DNA from: Clostridia bacterium | Lineage (GTDB): Bacteria > Bacillota > Clostridia > Lachnospirales > Anaerotignaceae | Assembly: GCA_022651385.1 (NCBI GenBank) | Contig: JALCQR010000002.1 | Location: forward strand, 124,001 to 188,000 | Direction: 5' to 3' | DNA length: 64,000 nt | Shown: positions 10,146 through 62,746 of the stretch, one piece after another | How positions within the stretch are numbered: the first letter of the stretch is position 1 | Layout of the letters: each line of letters begins with the position of its first letter | The notes under the pieces: model-generated | Database searches by the model: none | What the model was told of the DNA's origin: nothing | What the model saw: only the letters and a program-made list of their open reading frames with translations | Translations under genes and position numbers: made by a program

Positions 10146-11621
10146 CTATGGTTTACATACTTTACAGGCTGAATATCCAGCGTCCTCTGCATCACTTTTG
10201 CTTGCAAAATACACTATATTGCTTTCATTGATTTTTGCAGCATACGGGCATGTAAGTCTATGAAATTTTTTAGTGCTTAAATTTCCGATATACGCAGCTT
10301 CGCTTTTGCTGCAAAAATACGAATTAGTTGACGGAGAAGAATATGTATTTGGGTTTTTATATGAATCAGAATTGTTATAATTATTTTTGGCTCCGGCATC
10401 ATTTAATGTTAATTTATCATTAGTATTAAAATAATAACCGCCGCCGTCTGTTGTCATTTTCACAGTTGAGTCCTTAAATGTACCAAAAACCGTGGCTCCC
10501 TCATTAAAGAATCTCTCCAGCGCTTCCTTTGACGGATGCCCATAGCTGTTATCCTCACCTGCCGATACAACAACATATTCAGGCTTTATAACAGAAAGAA
10601 ATTCTTCCGAATTTGATTCCTTTGAGCCATGATGAGATGCTTTAAAAACATCAATGTCACTGAATTTTGAGAGACATTTTTTTTCAACATTTTTAGTCAT
10701 ATCTCCGGCAAAAAGAGCGCTTACATTTTTATATTTAAGCAGTGTGACTACGCTGTTGGCGTTTTCAGAACCGTTATTGTCTCCTGTCTCAATTATTTTA
10801 ATTTCAGCACCGTTTCCAATATTAAATGTCATATCGTCATCCGAAATTTCTTTGCAATTCGGCTCATTTTTTACAGCTGTTTCAAAATTTTTATAGGCAT
10901 TCGTATCGGCACTGTCGCCGTTATCAATCACTTCACCAACCTGAAAAGCCTTAAAAACAGCCGGAAGCCCGCCTATATGGTCAGCGTCTGTATGTGTCGC
11001 TATTACCAAATCAAGATTTCCGTCAACGTACGGCTTTATATCTTTTACAACCGTATCACCATGGTCTTTTGTACCCGCGTCAATAAGAATTTCATAATTA
11101 CCAAAATCTATAAATGTGCTGTCGCCTTGGCCTACATCTTCAAAATATACATTAAGAAGTTTTGCATTCGGCGAATCAATAATTACATTATGATTTACAC
11201 TGTCCCAATGCACATCAGCGCCAAACTCCTGAAGCACAGCCCTTATTGGCATGTAAATTCTTCCGCCGGATATCATAGCTTTAGTATCCGTTTCTTTTTT
11301 AGCGCCGCCTGATACAATATAATTTTTTCCTACAGGTACCTCAACACTTTTACCGGCTTTGCTTATATATGCCGTTTTGCTATCGCCGTCCCATTTTACA
11401 CTGCATCCATAGCTTTCGGCGGTCTGTCTTAAAGGGACCTGTGTTCTGCCGGCACCGTCTATAAACGGCGAATCAGTTTTGAATTGTGTGAATTTTCCGT
11501 CTATTTCAACATTTATACCGCTTTTTGCACTGGCAGCACAAGAAATTGATGATCCAACAACAAATACAGCAACAGATAATATTGTCACCATAAACAACTT
11601 TTTGAAATTTATTGTTTTCAT
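10146..11621 (-). CDS. secreted metallo-beta-lactamase protein with stalk domain and Ada-like zinc motif
   Basis: A 491-residue exported protein. It has a signal peptide (about 1-29), a copper-amine-oxidase-N-like stalk domain (about 36-150, with TQVPLRQTAESYGCSVKWDG and GRIYMPIRAVLQEFGADVHW), then a metallo-beta-lactamase domain of the ComEC C-terminal type (about 155-400) with VGQGDS, HTDADH (H210, D212, H215), LFAGDM and ASHHGS. After a Ser/Asn/Tyr-rich linker, the last 40 residues carry H-x3-C and C-x2-C (C458, C486, C489) in an Ada-like metal-binding pattern. Homologous MBL domains are hydrolases, likely nucleases or phosphodiesterases; the substrate is unknown. ATG at 11621 has GGGGGG, and a near-consensus promoter lies 27 bases upstream. 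Confidence 0.85.
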   Translation of the reverse strand: MKTINFKKLFMVTILSVAVFVVGSSISCAASAKSGINVEIDGKFTQFKTDSPFIDGAGRTQVPLRQTAESYGCSVKWDGDSKTAYISKAGKSVEVPVGKNYIVSGGAKKETDTKAMISGGRIYMPIRAVLQEFGADVHWDSVNHNVIIDSPNAKLLNVYFEDVGQGDSTFIDFGNYEILIDAGTKDHGDTVVKDIKPYVDGNLDLVIATHTDADHIGGLPAVFKAFQVGEVIDNGDSADTNAYKNFETAVKNEPNCKEISDDDMTFNIGNGAEIKIIETGDNNGSENANSVVTLLKYKNVSALFAGDMTKNVEKKCLSKFSDIDVFKASHHGSKESNSEEFLSVIKPEYVVVSAGEDNSYGHPSKEALERFFNEGATVFGTFKDSTVKMTTDGGGYYFNTNDKLTLNDAGAKNNYNNSDSYKNPNTYSSPSTNSYFCSKSEAAYIGNLSTKKFHRLTCPYAAKINESNIVYFASKSDAEDAGYSACKVCKP

Positions 11622-11647: not shown

Positions 11648-11676
11648 AATATATCACGTTTTATGACTAATGTCAA
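11648..11676 (-). promoter_or_regulatory. promoter of the secreted MBL gene
   Basis: On the minus strand TTGACA (11676-11671), exactly 17 bases, then TATATT (11653-11648). The -35 is perfect. Confidence 0.75.
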
Positions 11677-11715
11677 CTTAAACGAATCATTTTTTGCCAA
11701 AACAAAACATAGTCA

Positions 11716-22499: not shown

Positions 22500-22637
22500 A
22501 AAAAAAGCCGATTTATTCGGCTTCCGGAGAAAAGATTCAGGCTTTTTGCCTCTGTCCTTTTGCCTGAGAGATTAGCATTTTATGCCTTACACCTTCGGCT
22601 CTTGTTATTCAAGACTCTCCAGAGTTATTAACATCAC
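22500..22637 (-). promoter_or_regulatory. glycine riboswitch (single aptamer) with terminator
   Basis: On the minus strand the core glycine-aptamer blocks occur in order: CTCTGGAGAG, GCCGAAGGTGTAAGG, then ATCTCTCAGGCAAAAGGAC followed by AGAGGC. A hairpin with arms AGCCGAA and TTCGGCT and a T6 tract (22523-22500) follows before the AGCS start, so control is by transcription termination. Only one complete aptamer is seen. The following GCCTGAATCTTTTCTCC may form a ghost stem as in singleton glycine switches. Confidence 0.9.
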
Positions 22638-52217: not shown

Positions 52218-52886
52218 TTATTTTTTAAGTGATTTAAGTATAACCTGAGTTTGGTGTTCTATGTGTTCCGTCATTATCCTTACTCCAGCTTCAGCATCTT
52301 TGTTTTCTATTGCTGCAACAATGCCCCTGTGATGATTTATAATAGCGGTTTTTGTTTCATATACCTTAAGGTATGCCATTCTGTACCTGTATACTTGAGC
52401 ACGCATATTACTTATTATTGCTGTAAGTTTGGCGTTTCCGGCAGAATAAAAAATAACGTCATGGAATTTTTCGTCCATGGTAGCTACTCTTTCATAGTCT
52501 TTATCCTCAAACGCACGTTCAAATTCCGCATTACATCTTTTAAGCTCTTTTAGACTCTCTTCCGACATTGCTTTGCATGCGTGACGTACCCCCACACATT
52601 CGAGAGCACATCTTATCTCCAATACATTTTTAATGTCTTCGGCACTTATATCAAGCACCTGTGCTCCTCTTCTCGGTATAAGCTCCACAAGATTTTCCTG
52701 TTCAAGCATTCTAAGAGCTTCTCTTACAGGAGTACGGCTTACTCCAAGCTTGTCCGCAAGGTGATTTTCAAGAAGTCTTTCACCGGGCTTAAGCTGGCCT
52801 TTTAATATAGCATCTCTCAAATTATTAAAAACAACTTCTCTTAAAGGAAGGTATTCGTTTGAGCTCACATCAAATTTATATTCCAT
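52218..52886 (-). CDS. GntR family transcriptional regulator with FCD domain
   Basis: A 222-residue regulator. The winged helix (about 12-78) reads VVFNNLRDAILKGQLKPGERL and DKLGVSRTPVREALRMLEQE, a typical GntR signature. The FCD ligand-binding domain follows, with metal-type residues in EKFHDVIFYSAGN and a late His in IINHHRGIVAAI. FCD domains usually bind small organic acids. The target is unknown; ispE directly upstream and the LysM gene downstream are candidates. ATG at 52886 has AGGAGG. Confidence 0.92.
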   Translation of the reverse strand: MEYKFDVSSNEYLPLREVVFNNLRDAILKGQLKPGERLLENHLADKLGVSRTPVREALRMLEQENLVELIPRRGAQVLDISAEDIKNVLEIRCALECVGVRHACKAMSEESLKELKRCNAEFERAFEDKDYERVATMDEKFHDVIFYSAGNAKLTAIISNMRAQVYRYRMAYLKVYETKTAIINHHRGIVAAIENKDAEAGVRIMTEHIEHQTQVILKSLKK

Positions 52887-53942: not shown

Positions 53943-54025
53943 GAAAAGCCTATTGAGGGTAAGCAACAGGCTTTTCAGGAAGTTTTTGATGGGCGTTTAA
54001 AACGCATCATCTGAAAAAGAGAGTT
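53943..54025 (-). ncRNA. structured 3' RNA element of dctP copy 1 (two hairpins, second a terminator)
   Basis: Transcribed on the minus strand after dctP: AACTCTCTTTTTC, hairpin A (54011-53988), CTTCCT, then hairpin B (53976-53943) with arms GAAAAGCCTGTTG and CAATAGGCTTTTC and the C-rich loop CTTACCCT. The same arrangement occurs at 55844-55916, with different stem sequences that still pair. Confidence 0.55.
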
Positions 54026-54117
54026 CACTTTAAAATTTAAAAGTGAAATATTAAATTATACATACCCGTTCTTGCTGCCAGACAAAAACGGGATATGCTA
54101 ATTTTAGAAATTAAAAT

Positions 54118-55275
54118 TTATTTTGCGCTGCTTGTAGCTGCACCTGCTGAAGATGTATCAGCTGAAGATGAACTACTTGTAACTGGATGAGCTTTTACAA
54201 TTTCTTCTACCTTATTATAGATGTCAGGAGATACCATTCCTGAACCATCTTTTACATATTCATCATAGATAGATGCTGTAGCTTTCTTAAATGGAGCTTT
54301 TTCAGGCTCATTTGCCTGCATACCGTCTGATTTAAGATCTTCAAGACCTGATACGTTCTGTTCATCTATCTGCTGTCTCTCATAAGGAGCTGCTTCTGTT
54401 GCTGCTTCCTGAACTGCTTTCTGGTAATCTTCAGGCATTGAATCATAGTAATCTTTTGCAATAAATACTGGAGCCGGGCTGAAGAGATGTCCTGTTAAAG
54501 AAATATATTTCTGAACTTCTGCAAACTTGTTTGTATTTACAATAGGAATAGGATTTTCCTCACCGTCTATTGTACCCTGCTGTAAAGCTGTGAAAACATC
54601 GCCCATTGCCATAGGTGTAGGATCAGCGCCCATTGCCTGGAATGCAGCCATGTGCATCTGGTTTTCCATTGTTCTTATCTTCATGCCTTTAAGGTCATCC
54701 GGTGTATTAATAGGTTGTTTATTGTTTGTTACGTTTCTGAATCCGTTTTCAAACCATGCAAGGCCAACCATGCCCTGGTCATCAACTGAGTGAAGTATCT
54801 CACTACCTACATCACTGTCCATTACAGCTCTTGCCTGTTCCGTTGTTTCAAATATGAACGGAAGGTCAAATACGAGGAAAGAATCTGTAAATCCTGCAAG
54901 TGGAGCAGTTGAAACACATGTTACCTGAACTGATCCAAGCTGAAGACCTTCAAGAAGGTCACGTTCACTTCCGAGCTGTGAGTTTCCGAATACGTCAAGA
55001 GTTACAGCTCCGTTTGTTTTTTGCTTAACAAGTTCACCCATTTTCTTAAGACCTAAGTTATATGGATGAGCATCTGGTGTTGTTGTTCCTGAAATCATAG
55101 CAAATTCTGCTTTGCCTGAAGCGGCTGTTGAACCTGCTGCTGAACCTGAGGCTGCTGTTGAGCCTGCTGCAGAACCTGGTGTTTTTGATTGTGTTGATGA
55201 TGTGCTGCCGCAGCCTGTAAGTGATAATGCTAATACAGTTGCTGCCATAACTGCTGCTAAAACTTTCTTTTTCAT
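54118..55275 (-). CDS. TRAP transporter solute-binding lipoprotein (DctP family), copy 1
   Basis: A 385-residue lipoprotein: signal peptide with lipobox LTGC, a Gly/Ser/Ala linker containing two exact copies of SAAGSTAASG, and a DctP domain (about 55-355; KMGELVKQKTNGAVTLDVFG, LLEGLQLGSVQV, the ligand-binding Arg in DLKGMKIRTMEN, FSPAPVFIAKDYYDSM). DctP proteins bind carboxylates and hand them to a DctQ/DctM permease, but no dctQ or dctM is in this window. The start is the ATG at 55275 after GGGAGG. The mature domain differs from copy 2 only at scattered positions, so this is a recent tandem duplication. Confidence 0.93.
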   Translation of the reverse strand: MKKKVLAAVMAATVLALSLTGCGSTSSTQSKTPGSAAGSTAASGSAAGSTAASGKAEFAMISGTTTPDAHPYNLGLKKMGELVKQKTNGAVTLDVFGNSQLGSERDLLEGLQLGSVQVTCVSTAPLAGFTDSFLVFDLPFIFETTEQARAVMDSDVGSEILHSVDDQGMVGLAWFENGFRNVTNNKQPINTPDDLKGMKIRTMENQMHMAAFQAMGADPTPMAMGDVFTALQQGTIDGEENPIPIVNTNKFAEVQKYISLTGHLFSPAPVFIAKDYYDSMPEDYQKAVQEAATEAAPYERQQIDEQNVSGLEDLKSDGMQANEPEKAPFKKATASIYDEYVKDGSGMVSPDIYNKVEEIVKAHPVTSSSSSADTSSAGAATSSAK

Positions 55276-55843
55276 TTTAATCCTCCCTTGGACAACTTTT
55301 ATTGTTTTAAAAATGTTATTAATTAACATTTATTAACAAAGTTAAAAAAACTATCCATTTTTAATATAGTATAGAGTACGTCAAAATAAAATATACAAAA
55401 ATTGGCGTGGCCACCATACCATTCTGCCCTAAAAAAACATTTGAAAAATATTATTTAAATCTTTCAAACATTTAAAGATATTAAAAATCATTTATTATTT
55501 TACCAAAAAAACATACAATTATGCTTTTAATTTTACAAAATACTATTAATTTCAAACAAGGGTAATATTATCATTTATGTTTTGAATTGTCAATATTTTA
55601 GCAAACATGAAAAAAAATCCGATATTTTGTATAAAGCATCCAATTGATTTTAGTAATATGTAATATATTTATAAATTATTTACATTACTTTTTCATTTAT
55701 TCGGCTTTATCGAATTAAATAACACAATAATTAAGAATTAAAATAAAAAAAAGTGAATAAAAGTCTTGAATTTTAGTAAGAATCACAAATTTGGTATAAT
55801 CATCATATGATTAAACATCACATGATTCGTTTTATCTTTAGTA
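55276..55843. other. 568-bp AT-rich region upstream of dctP copy 1
   Basis: No gene. It contains the dctP leader with a perfect inverted repeat AAATGTTA/TAACATTT (55311-55331), a possible operator. Around 55795-55830 lie AATCATCATATGATT-like dyads. No strong sigma-A promoter was found; TATACT near 55370 is a possible -10 on the minus strand. Confidence 0.4.
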
Positions 55844-55916
55844 AAAACCCGCTGAGGGTAGGCAGCGGGTTTTAGGAAGGCTTTTATGACATTAGTCATA
55901 AAAGAAAAAGAGAGTT
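55844..55916 (-). ncRNA. structured 3' RNA element of dctP copy 2 (two hairpins, second a terminator)
   Basis: Minus strand: AACTCTCTTTTTC, hairpin A with perfect ten-base arms CTTTTATGAC/GTCATAAAAG (55904-55881), CTTCCT, then hairpin B (55873-55844) with arms AAAACCCGCTG/CAGCGGGTTTT and loop CCTACCCT, followed by TTTTTA. Loop and linkers match copy 1, stems do not. Confidence 0.55.
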
Positions 55917-56004: not shown

Positions 56005-57132
56005 TTATTCTGCAGTTGAACTGCTTGCGCTTGATGAGCTGCCTGTGCTTGATGAACTGTCTGTAGCAGGATGTGCTTTTACAATTTCTTCTACCTTATT
56101 ATAGATGTCAGGAGATACCATTCCCGAACCATCTTTTACATATTCATCATAGATAGACGCTGTAGCTTTCTTAAACGGAGCTTTTTCAGGCTCATTTACC
56201 TGCATGCCGGCTGCTTTAAGATCATCAAGACCGGTTGCATTTTGCTTATCTATCTGGTCTCTTTCGTAAGGGGCAGCCTCTGTTGCTGCTTCCTGAACTG
56301 CTTTCTGATAATCTTCAGACATTGAATCATAGTAATCTTTTGCCATAAATACTGGAGCCGGGCTGAAGAGATGTCCTGTTAAAGAAATATATTTCTGAAC
56401 TTCTGAAAATTTATTTGTGTCAACAATAGGTACAGGATTTTCCTCGCCGTCTATTGTGCCCTGCTGTAAAGCTGTGAAAACATCGCCCATTGCCATAGGT
56501 GTAGGATCAGCGCCCATTGCCTGGAATGCAGCCATGTGCATCTGGTTTTCCATTGTTCTTATCTTCATGCCTTTAAGGTCATCCGGCGTATTAATAGGTT
56601 TCTTATTGTTTGTTACGTTTCTGAATCCGTTTTCAAACCATGCAAGACCGACAATTCCTTGATCATCAACCGAGTGAAGTATCTCGTTTCCAACATCGCT
56701 GTCCATTACAGCCCTTGCCTGTTCTGTTGTTTCGAATATGAACGGAAGGTCAAATACAAGGAAAGAATCCGTAAATCCTGCAAGTGGAGCAGTTGAAACG
56801 CATGTTACCTGAACTGATCCAAGCTGAAGACCCTCAATAAGGTCACGTTCACTGCCGAGCTGCGAGTTTCCAAATACATCAAGAGTTACAGCTCCGTTTG
56901 TTTTTTGGTCTACAAGTTCACCCATCTTTTTAAGTCCTAAGTTATATGGATGAGCATCCGGAAGTGTTGTACCTGCAATCATTGCAAATTCAGCCTTTCC
57001 CGATGCCTGCGATGATGCGCCTGACTTAGCAGCTGCCGCATTTGATGATGCTGCTGATGAACTTCCGCATCCTGCAAGTGATGCTGCTAATAAAGCCGAC
57101 GCTATAATTACTCCTAAAACTTTCTTCTTCAT
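56005..57132 (-). CDS. TRAP transporter solute-binding lipoprotein (DctP family), copy 2
   Basis: A 375-residue lipoprotein with lipobox LAGC, a shorter Ala/Ser linker (without the repeated decapeptide of copy 1) and a DctP domain almost identical to copy 1, including the Arg in DLKGMKIRTMEN. Differences cluster in the signal peptide, linker and C-terminal Ser tail, with conservative changes elsewhere (VDQK for VKQK, DTNKF for NTNKF). The ATG at 57132 has GGGGGA. It has its own leader and terminator. Which carboxylate is bound is not evident, and the permease genes are not here. Confidence 0.93.
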   Translation of the reverse strand: MKKKVLGVIIASALLAASLAGCGSSSAASSNAAAAKSGASSQASGKAEFAMIAGTTLPDAHPYNLGLKKMGELVDQKTNGAVTLDVFGNSQLGSERDLIEGLQLGSVQVTCVSTAPLAGFTDSFLVFDLPFIFETTEQARAVMDSDVGNEILHSVDDQGIVGLAWFENGFRNVTNNKKPINTPDDLKGMKIRTMENQMHMAAFQAMGADPTPMAMGDVFTALQQGTIDGEENPVPIVDTNKFSEVQKYISLTGHLFSPAPVFMAKDYYDSMSEDYQKAVQEAATEAAPYERDQIDKQNATGLDDLKAAGMQVNEPEKAPFKKATASIYDEYVKDGSGMVSPDIYNKVEEIVKAHPATDSSSSTGSSSSASSSTAE

Positions 57133-61701: not shown

Positions 61702-62051
61702 AATTTATGCTTCCTTTCGAGAAAAAACTGCGAAACCCTGCCGGTAATCCCAAAAACAATAAATGTTACAACAAACAGCGCCAGCAATATTGGTATAAGA
61801 AACTGCTTCAAATCATCAGACGCCGTCACTATTCCTACTGTAGAAGGCACAAATGTTATTGCAAGTATATCAAGGAGAAATTCTCCTACATCTTTTATTT
61901 CATCAAACTTCAGTATTCCTGTTTGAAGAAACAGAAGCAGTATTACAAGTCCATATATTCCAGCCGGAATTGGAAAGTCAAGAAGTTTATAAATCACCTC
62001 ACCTAAAAATGTTATTCCAAATATTATCATGAACTGTTTTATGTATTTCAT
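61698..62051 (-). CDS. lrgA: LrgA/CidA family holin-like protein
   Basis: A 117-residue protein with four membrane helices (FMIIFGITFLGEVIYKLLDFPIPAGIYGLVILLLFLQTG is the family N-terminus) and a basic C-terminal tail (FLERKHKL). Partner of LrgB. Its ATG overlaps the stop codon of the gntR gene by four bases, with GGAGGG inside the gntR end, so all three genes are translationally coupled. Confidence 0.93.
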   Translation of the reverse strand: MKYIKQFMIIFGITFLGEVIYKLLDFPIPAGIYGLVILLLFLQTGILKFDEIKDVGEFLLDILAITFVPSTVGIVTASDDLKQFLIPILLALFVVTFIVFGITGRVSQFFLERKHKL

Positions 62052-62746
62052 TTTCTGTATCCCTCCTTTCCTATTATTTCGTCTACCAAATCATAATGTT
62101 TGTTTACCACATCCTCAACTTTTGTTTTATCTCTTTTAATAAGACATTCCGCTATTTTTATATGACAGTTAACAAGTCTGAATTTTTCCTCATTATCCGT
62201 TATTTTCCATACATTCCCTATAAGAGACGAAGTTATTTCCGAAAGAGCTTCCAATACAGTAGTTATAAGAGTATTGTCGGCCGAATCATAAATATACCTG
62301 TGAAATTGCGAATCAAACTCGGTACATTCTTCAACATTATCCGTTCTCATGCTTTCCGCAAATTTCATGAGTATACCGCAGTCTATATTTTCAGAATCAA
62401 TACATAAAAGCATGGCTTGTTTTTCAAGACCTCGTCTGAAATCATCTATTTCTGTACAATTAATTTTTTTAAGCAATACTATCATAGTTACTACTCTTGC
62501 CAAACCCTCTTCAAAATGGTCAGATATGTAATTTCCTCCGCCTTGTATACATTCCGCTATTCCAAGGCTTTCAAGCACACGTATTCCCTCTCTTACAGAA
62601 TAGCGTCCAATATTAAGCATATCGGCTAAATATCTCTCTGTAGGCAGTTTGTCACCTTGTTTTATACTGCCGCTCACTATTCCGTTTTTCACATATTCCA
62701 AAACTTTTTCATAGGATTTAATACTTTTTTCAATCTCATTATTCAT
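62048..62746 (-). CDS. FadR-subfamily GntR transcriptional regulator
   Basis: A 232-residue regulator with an N-terminal winged helix (VLEYVKNGIVSGSIKQGDKLPTERYLADMLNIGRYSVREGIRVLESLG, FadR-like) and an FCD domain with metal-type residues in FDSQFHRYIYDSADN and a late His in LVNCHIKIAECL. It heads the gntR-lrgA-lrgB operon and faces a perfect FadR-type operator at its own promoter. The effector is probably a small carboxylate. ATG at 62746 has GGAGG. Confidence 0.92.
   Translation of the reverse strand: MNNEIEKSIKSYEKVLEYVKNGIVSGSIKQGDKLPTERYLADMLNIGRYSVREGIRVLESLGIAECIQGGGNYISDHFEEGLARVVTMIVLLKKINCTEIDDFRRGLEKQAMLLCIDSENIDCGILMKFAESMRTDNVEECTEFDSQFHRYIYDSADNTLITTVLEALSEITSSLIGNVWKITDNEEKFRLVNCHIKIAECLIKRDKTKVEDVVNKHYDLVDEIIGKEGYRK

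Follow-up and report, generated by a model that had tools for sequence, protein, structure and literature searches.

The window, as the whole stretch of 64,000 nucleotides analysed is called here, contains two tandem dctP genes on its minus strand, each followed by a structured element (Table 1). Read directly on that strand, the sequence after either gene runs through AACTCTCTTTTTC, hairpin A and CTTCCT to hairpin B, whose loop is CYTACCCT, which is the architecture that the sequence-only reading had described. All energies given here are predictions for isolated fragments. The copy 1 region folds at -30.3 kcal/mol (z -8.4) and the copy 2 region at -25.8 kcal/mol (z -5.8), and in both cases none of 200 dinucleotide shuffles is as good. 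A search for hairpins with TACCC in a loop of 7 to 15 nt and a stem of 8 bp or more gives seven in 448,000 strand-bases, comprising the window and eight 20-kb stretches of the same genome, and only the two window elements show stems longer than 8 bp (11 and 13 bp). Both sides of several stem pairs differ between the two copies; the MAFFT alignment of these with one homologue, in genome G004, is poor, and three sequences are too few for a covariation test. The terminator scan lists hairpin B of copy 2 only; that of copy 1 is missed because its T run is taken up by the stem. The elements also look terminator-like, and the roles of terminator and of regulatory RNA are not mutually exclusive.

Table 1. 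Tandem dctP genes of the window, their 3' elements and an upstream palindrome (window coordinates).
Feature	Position	Strand	Basis
First tandem dctP, class A, for an orphan TRAP substrate-binding lipoprotein	56005..57132	-	ORF; Pfam DctP, E 9.2e-98; tree
dctP class A, second of tandem pair	54118..55275	-	ORF; tree
Copy 1 segment 1, AACTCTCTTTTTC	55904..55916	-	13 bp perfect complement to codons 1-5 of class B dctP
Copy 1 hairpin A, 10 bp, loop TAAT	55881..55904	-	RNA folding
Copy 1 segment 2, CTTCCT	55874..55879	-	Pairing with AGGAGG possible, one G-U
Copy 1 hairpin B, 11 bp, 8-nt loop CCTACCCT (55862-55855), terminator-like	55844..55873	-	Folding; hairpin search
Copy 2 segment 1, AACTCTCTTTTTC	54013..54025	-	14 bp with class B start, counting the next A
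Copy 2 hairpin A	53988..54011	-	RNA folding
Copy 2 segment 2, CTTCCT	53977..53982	-	Sequence
Copy 2 hairpin B, 13 bp, loop CTTACCCT (53963-53956), then T run, intrinsic-terminator-like	53943..53976	-	Folding; terminator scan
Palindromic AATGTTAATTAATAACATT before the second class A dctP, possible regulator site	55312..55330	-	Sequence

The interval from stop codon to element gave no promoter-like match, and the closest ones further upstream are intragenic (56174-56146 and 54290-54262); the region shows 22 promoter-like matches, compared with 16.0 (sd 3.8) in shuffles. Rfam gives no family at gathering score at the elements or in the six relatives' loci searched; only sub-threshold matches appear. 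An additional hairpin, CATATCCCG..CGGGTATG followed by TATAATTTAAT (54055-54097, minus strand), is located between dctP 2 and its element and was not seen after dctP 1. Elsewhere in the window, positions 22542-22632 (minus strand) contain a glycine riboswitch aptamer (68.5 bits). A stretch of 17 nt is common to hairpin A of copy 1 (55884-55901) and the promoter-like region 11661-11678 of the gene at 10146-11621 (minus strand), and was set aside as probably a chance match (seven matches in the palindrome search, 5.06 expected).

The tree of 41 DctP proteins from the family, in which several deep forks are open, separates the genes used below. Class A contains 11 rows: the window pair, the dctP genes of four genomes of the sister genus g13, and the tandem pair of G004, with a support of 84/99, short of what the tree program counts as firm. 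The two window genes are each other's closest relatives (100/100). Class B contains the gene on contig C10 of this genome (G000) and its counterparts; it lies outside class A and forms no single firm clade, six rows being grouped at 82/92 and that of G040 standing apart. This class is present in seven genomes, six of them belonging to one genus. Class B genes head a dctPQM operon: dctQ and dctM are downstream in this genome (Pfam), and also in G034, G012, G048 and G040 by sequence likeness. The nearest DctM in the six g13 genomes is 81-86% identical. Between class B dctP and dctQ there is a terminator-like hairpin (L062, L063, L064, L065 and L057) with a common block around GAAGTGTGC before dctQ, a combination that might control the level of permease.

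No dctQM genes adjoin the class A genes in the inspected loci of G012, G034, G052 and G004, and none of the four DctM matches of this genome lies on the contig of the window. In G004, dctQM is on another contig than the tandem dctP genes and is not accompanied by a dctP, and a class B gene was not found in the assembly. A class A gene was not found in G048, though the class B leader is present, and in G040 the class A 3' end is beyond the contig end; G004, G040 and G048 thus cannot show a source-target pair. Hfq (PF17209) was not detected in any of the eight genomes searched (G000, G004, G012, G025, G034, G040, G048 and G052), and the same search is positive in five of 14 control genomes. By this search, these genomes do not fit an Hfq-dependent small RNA, for which an encoded Hfq is expected.

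In the 2.6-Mb genome, AACTCTCTTTTTC has three exact sites: the two window copies and one antisense to a dctP start codon. This third site is the antisense of ATGAAAAAGAGAGTT, the start of the class B dctP on contig C10. Alone, the 13-mer match is weak and not far from chance level, because 25 sites with up to one mismatch (the three exact ones included) compare with 22 for the reversed control. By inspection, the three unpaired segments of the element are collinear antisense to the class B leader, in the same antiparallel order: the 13-mer fits codons 1-5, CTTCCT fits the Shine-Dalgarno (SD) sequence AGGAGG, and TTACCCT fits AGGGTAA, the AAGGGTAA box upstream of the SD. None of 185 background starts of the same genome matches 8 nt or more of segment 1 together with 6 nt or more of the loop; the class B start matches 13 and 7 nt. 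One-mismatch complements of the 13-mer also lie at other start codons (L004 and L008), which are possible side targets.

The class B leader is itself a distinctive sequence. The pattern AAGGGTAA..TAGGAGG..ATGAAA is found once each in seven of the 58 family genomes, always at the class B dctP start; among 392 genomes of the taxonomic order (the 58 included), five of the other 334 have a further match, before unrelated genes. In the sister genus the leader reads AATAAGGGTAAAAAATTTTAGGAGG. In the leaders of G012, G025, G034 and G052, the SD GGAGG is predicted to be 94-97% paired (3-6% unpaired) within a hairpin, the loop of which exposes AAGGGUAA at 93-95% unpaired. The target box is predicted to be unpaired at 0.93-0.98 in five of the seven leaders, including G040 (98%), at 66% in G048 and at only 0.36 in this genome. 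A conserved promoter-like block, TTGCAA-17-TAAAAT, precedes the class B start by about 295 nt in this genome (L057/L240 and counterparts) and is aligned in seven genomes; the class B leader that it implies would measure roughly 260 nt and contain other conserved stretches.

The four sister-genus genomes, which are not independent of each other, have dctP 3'UTRs that differ from those of the window but contain a hairpin displaying 16-17 nt perfectly complementary to the class B leader. The first class A gene of G012, G034 and G052 is followed by CTCCTAAAAGGATTTTTTACCCTTATTTAATCCTTTT, a hairpin with ACCCTTA in its loop, and then by a separate terminator, and in G025 the CTCCTAAAAGGATTTTTTACCCTTATTTAATCCTTTT block shows two T runs changed by one. 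This antisense hairpin of 37 nt is thus identical in three species and differs in the fourth only in two T-run lengths, and the flanks and terminator stems diverge. Next to the loop, CTCCTAAAA is complementary to TTTTAGGAG, the SD region; the predicted duplex runs over CTCCTAAAA in G025, and in the other three first-gene UTRs the optimum stops before the SD. The second class A gene of G034 carries TTTCCT..CTACCCTTA in its 3'UTR, and that of G012 (L060) carries several ACCCTTA-like repeats in an A/T-rich 3'UTR, weaker in G025 (L059). The G012 repeats look as if the antisense motif had been multiplied. The dctP on contig C4 of G034, outside class A in the tree, also has a 3'UTR with a 14-nt perfect complement.

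The architecture of the window was seen in one other genome, G004. After one of its two tandem dctP genes there is AACTCTCTTTTC, a hairpin and then a hairpin with a CTTACCC loop, without a clear CTTCCT linker; the other tandem gene has no element. The pattern AACTCTCTTTT..TTACCC was found in the 58 genomes only in this element and on the antisense strand of five class B leaders, with a spacing limit of 10-40 nt that excludes the two window copies. No clear target emerged in G004: ATGAAAAGAGAGTT has no exact site there, 83 sites with up to two mismatches compare with 35 for the reversed control, and inspection showed none of the four one-mismatch sites to be a start codon. The G004 dctQ leader, with only a 6-bp match by eye, was also rejected as a target. 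The element search in G040 returned the class B leader itself only, and in G048 one site with three mismatches. Sites of TTTTTTACCCTTA in the family beyond class A 3'UTRs and class B leaders look unrelated by eye. The sequence-only reading had looked to further homologues with the same loop and linkers, and this expectation held in part: complementarity to the same target is found in four more genomes, in another architecture, but the same architecture in G004 only, and there without a clear CTTCCT linker, a count based on the 3' regions of the compared dctP loci and on the single 58-genome pattern search, whose spacing limit would miss even the window's own copies.

Pairing was evaluated for ten UTRs, with ends cut by eye after the terminator: two of G000, two of G012, two of G025, three of G034 and one of G052, including the UTR of G034 contig C4 that the tree places outside class A. 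Both G004 UTRs, G040 (3' end missing) and G048 (no class A gene found) were left out of this duplex test. With pairing corrected for accessibility, nine of the ten UTRs, from five genomes, pair best with the class B start, against 89-185 background leaders each, the G012 leaders serving as background for G025 and G052. The exception is the first gene of G034, for which one of 91 background leaders is better than class B. Energies with the class B start range from -9.9 to -15.1 kcal/mol for the ten UTRs, and from 0 to -4.0 kcal/mol for control 3'UTRs of eight dctP genes (four of class B and four of class C). Of 200 shuffles per UTR, the number that equal the observed energy is 2, 2, 0, 11, 6, 1, 0, 0, 8 and 3, and some UTRs are marginal alone because shuffles match them in up to 11 of 200. 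One G004 UTR, paired with the class B leader of this genome, gives -10.1 kcal/mol, reached by none of 200 shuffles.

Plain duplex energies without accessibility are dominated by terminator stems and do not single out class B, which ranks 1, 2, 1, 14, 3, 16 and 10 for seven UTRs; the accessibility-corrected method was used instead. Perfect runs measure 16-17 nt in the four sister first-gene UTRs and 13-14 nt in this genome, and by run length alone the background is equal or better for four UTRs (1/185, 2/89, 32/91 and 3/89). On the side of the source, ACCCT is predicted to be unpaired at 0.84-1.0 in both window copies, G004 and the four first-gene UTRs, and at 0.51-0.83 in three others; segment 1 of this genome is at 0.75-0.82. 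The idea that a 3'-derived RNA might pair with a ribosome site through its C-rich loop is supported by these results, which give it a candidate target, the translation-initiation region of a paralogous dctP.

We consider it quite probable, from this pairing and its genomic setting, that the class A dctP 3'UTR is an antisense module that pairs in trans with the class B dctP leader and blocks its translation, the class A proteins replacing class B on a shared DctQM. The module, ending at the terminator-like hairpin, would act within the mRNA or as a released small RNA, and its partner would be the leader of the first gene of dctPQM. In this genome, the three unpaired segments would mask codons 1-5, the SD sequence and the upstream AAGGGTAA box. 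In the sister genus, the hairpin loop UUUUACCCUUAUUU could form a kissing contact with the loop AAUAAGGGUAAAAAA of the leader hairpin that occludes the SD, and the adjoining CUCCUAAAA is complementary to the SD region. Either a loop-loop contact extended over the SD, or pairing with the SD and codons 1-5, should prevent initiation. The likely logic is that a regulator releases the class A genes, class A proteins rise, their 3'UTRs lower class B, and DctQM is left to the new binding proteins. G004, with its tandem dctP genes and dctQM on separate contigs and no class B gene found in the assembly, is consistent with the putative use of DctQM by class A proteins, which this logic would require.

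Ordinary duplicated terminators are an unlikely explanation for the window elements. A tandem duplication would have copied a two-hairpin terminator, leaving the common linkers as remnants, and it agrees with the terminator score of hairpin B of copy 2 and with the closest relationship of the two window genes (100/100). It does not account for linkers and a loop that are kept while the stems are replaced, nor does it predict that the 3'UTRs of five genomes, in two architectures, are complementary to one leader, and the eight control dctP 3'UTRs show nothing of the kind. Quite unlikely, too, is an opposite effect of the same contact, in which pairing with the leader loop would open the SD-occluding hairpin of class B and raise its translation. 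The predicted pairing of the SD GGAGG (94-97% in four of the seven leaders, with the box exposed) would suit such activation, as would the best duplex, which covers the loop and ends short of the SD in several UTRs, including three of the four sister first-gene UTRs; but the antisense of this genome extends over the first codons and, as judged by inspection, over the SD, and the CTCCTAAAA of the sister genus, which can pair with the SD region, lies within the predicted duplex in G025; both contacts should block ribosomes. The least likely alternative is an autoregulation in cis of the icaR type, in which the 3'UTR would pair with the ribosome site of the class A mRNA that carries it: dctP 2 does begin with GAAAAAGAAAGTT, which differs at one position from the complement of the 13-mer, and its SD region is AAGGGAGG, but pairing with the class A leader (-60..+30 only) is weaker for all ten UTRs, from 0 to -7.4 compared with -9.9 to -15.1 kcal/mol.

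Repression of class B by class A 3'UTRs would place the switch under whatever controls class A, and palindromic sites are found in front of at least one class A gene per genome in this genome and the four sister genomes. In addition to AATGTTAATTAATAACATT before the second window gene, AATGTTAATTNAATAACATT, one base longer, is found exactly only before the first class A dctP of G012, G025 and G052 among the 58 genomes, and with one mismatch before the first class A gene of G034 and at one G030 site. No palindrome was seen before the first dctP of the window. The palindrome AATGTTAATTAATAACATT/AATGTTAATTNAATAACATT is a possible operator. The window also contains two GntR/FCD regulator genes, at 52218-52886 and 62048-62746.

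A wider reading is offered more tentatively, as a possibility that we would put somewhat below even: a family-wide RNA switch free of Hfq, by which orphan TRAP dctP genes would take over a shared DctQM permease, their 3'UTRs each acquiring antisense hairpins directed at the start of the operon dctP, the pairing site having moved from the leader loop to the first codons between genera, and the module being maybe an inverted copy of the target leader. In the dctP case, pairing appears to be kept while sequence and structure change. A 3'UTR RNA and its target can here be predicted together from sequence alone, in gut-type Lachnospirales relatives in which no Hfq was detected, and the predicted RNA would connect the duplicated binding proteins with the operon encoding the permease that they probably use. 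The model gives a testable answer to the question of how orphan substrate-binding proteins avoid competing for one permease.

Among known systems, porin switching by MicF and MicC also involves an RNA linked to one paralogous outer-membrane gene that represses another. MicF and MicC are independent, Hfq-dependent small RNA genes, whereas the module here sits in a dctP 3'UTR. In the open-licence literature, no report was found of a UTR-derived small RNA tied to a TRAP transporter; for TRAP transporters or dctP with small RNAs, a Ruegeria survey alone was found, and for UTR-derived small RNAs in Lachnospiraceae a Bacteroides study alone came up, both judged on the portions of text available. Few 3'UTR-derived RNAs are described in Gram-positive bacteria, where RNase J has been argued to hinder their evolution, according to the available portion of the source (PMC8406224). 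The icaR mRNA of Staphylococcus aureus, as the accessible part of its report presents it, shows a 3'UTR-5'UTR interaction in which a C-rich UCCCC motif masks the ribosome site of its own mRNA (PMC7821165); the C-rich 3'UTR motif in a Gram-positive bacterium is shared, but the best partner here is the mRNA of another gene. OppZ of Vibrio cholerae, a small RNA derived from the 3'UTR of the peptide-transporter operon oppABCDF, adjusts binding protein versus permease, relies on Hfq and RNase E and targets its own operon, on the available account (PMC9438474). It resembles the present case as a 3'UTR RNA concerned with a transporter binding protein versus its permease, and differs in that no Hfq was detected in the genomes here.

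The nearest system, as far as the excerpted text of its report goes, is s-SodF of Streptomyces coelicolor, in which the sodF 3'UTR silences sodN through a 19-nt perfect match to the sodN leader; a sequence search brought this match to light, and its action was demonstrated afterwards (PMC3919588). Both cases show a 3'UTR complementary to the leader and ribosome site of the gene for an alternative protein, a source gene under its own transcription factor (putative here) and, as the outcome, an exchange of isoforms (predicted here). In line with an s-SodF-type RNA, both window elements are downstream of a stop codon and show a terminator-like 3' end, judged by sequence only; they are complementary to the ribosome site and start of an mRNA encoded elsewhere; and complementarity to class B is kept across five genomes and two genera. 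Compared with s-SodF, as described in the same excerpt, source and target here are close paralogues of a transporter binding protein with several source genes, hairpin loops would take part in the pairing, the paired register differs between genera, and the case is known from genome sequences alone. The complementarity suggests that making one version of a transporter protein may shut off the other, as s-SodF does for sodN.
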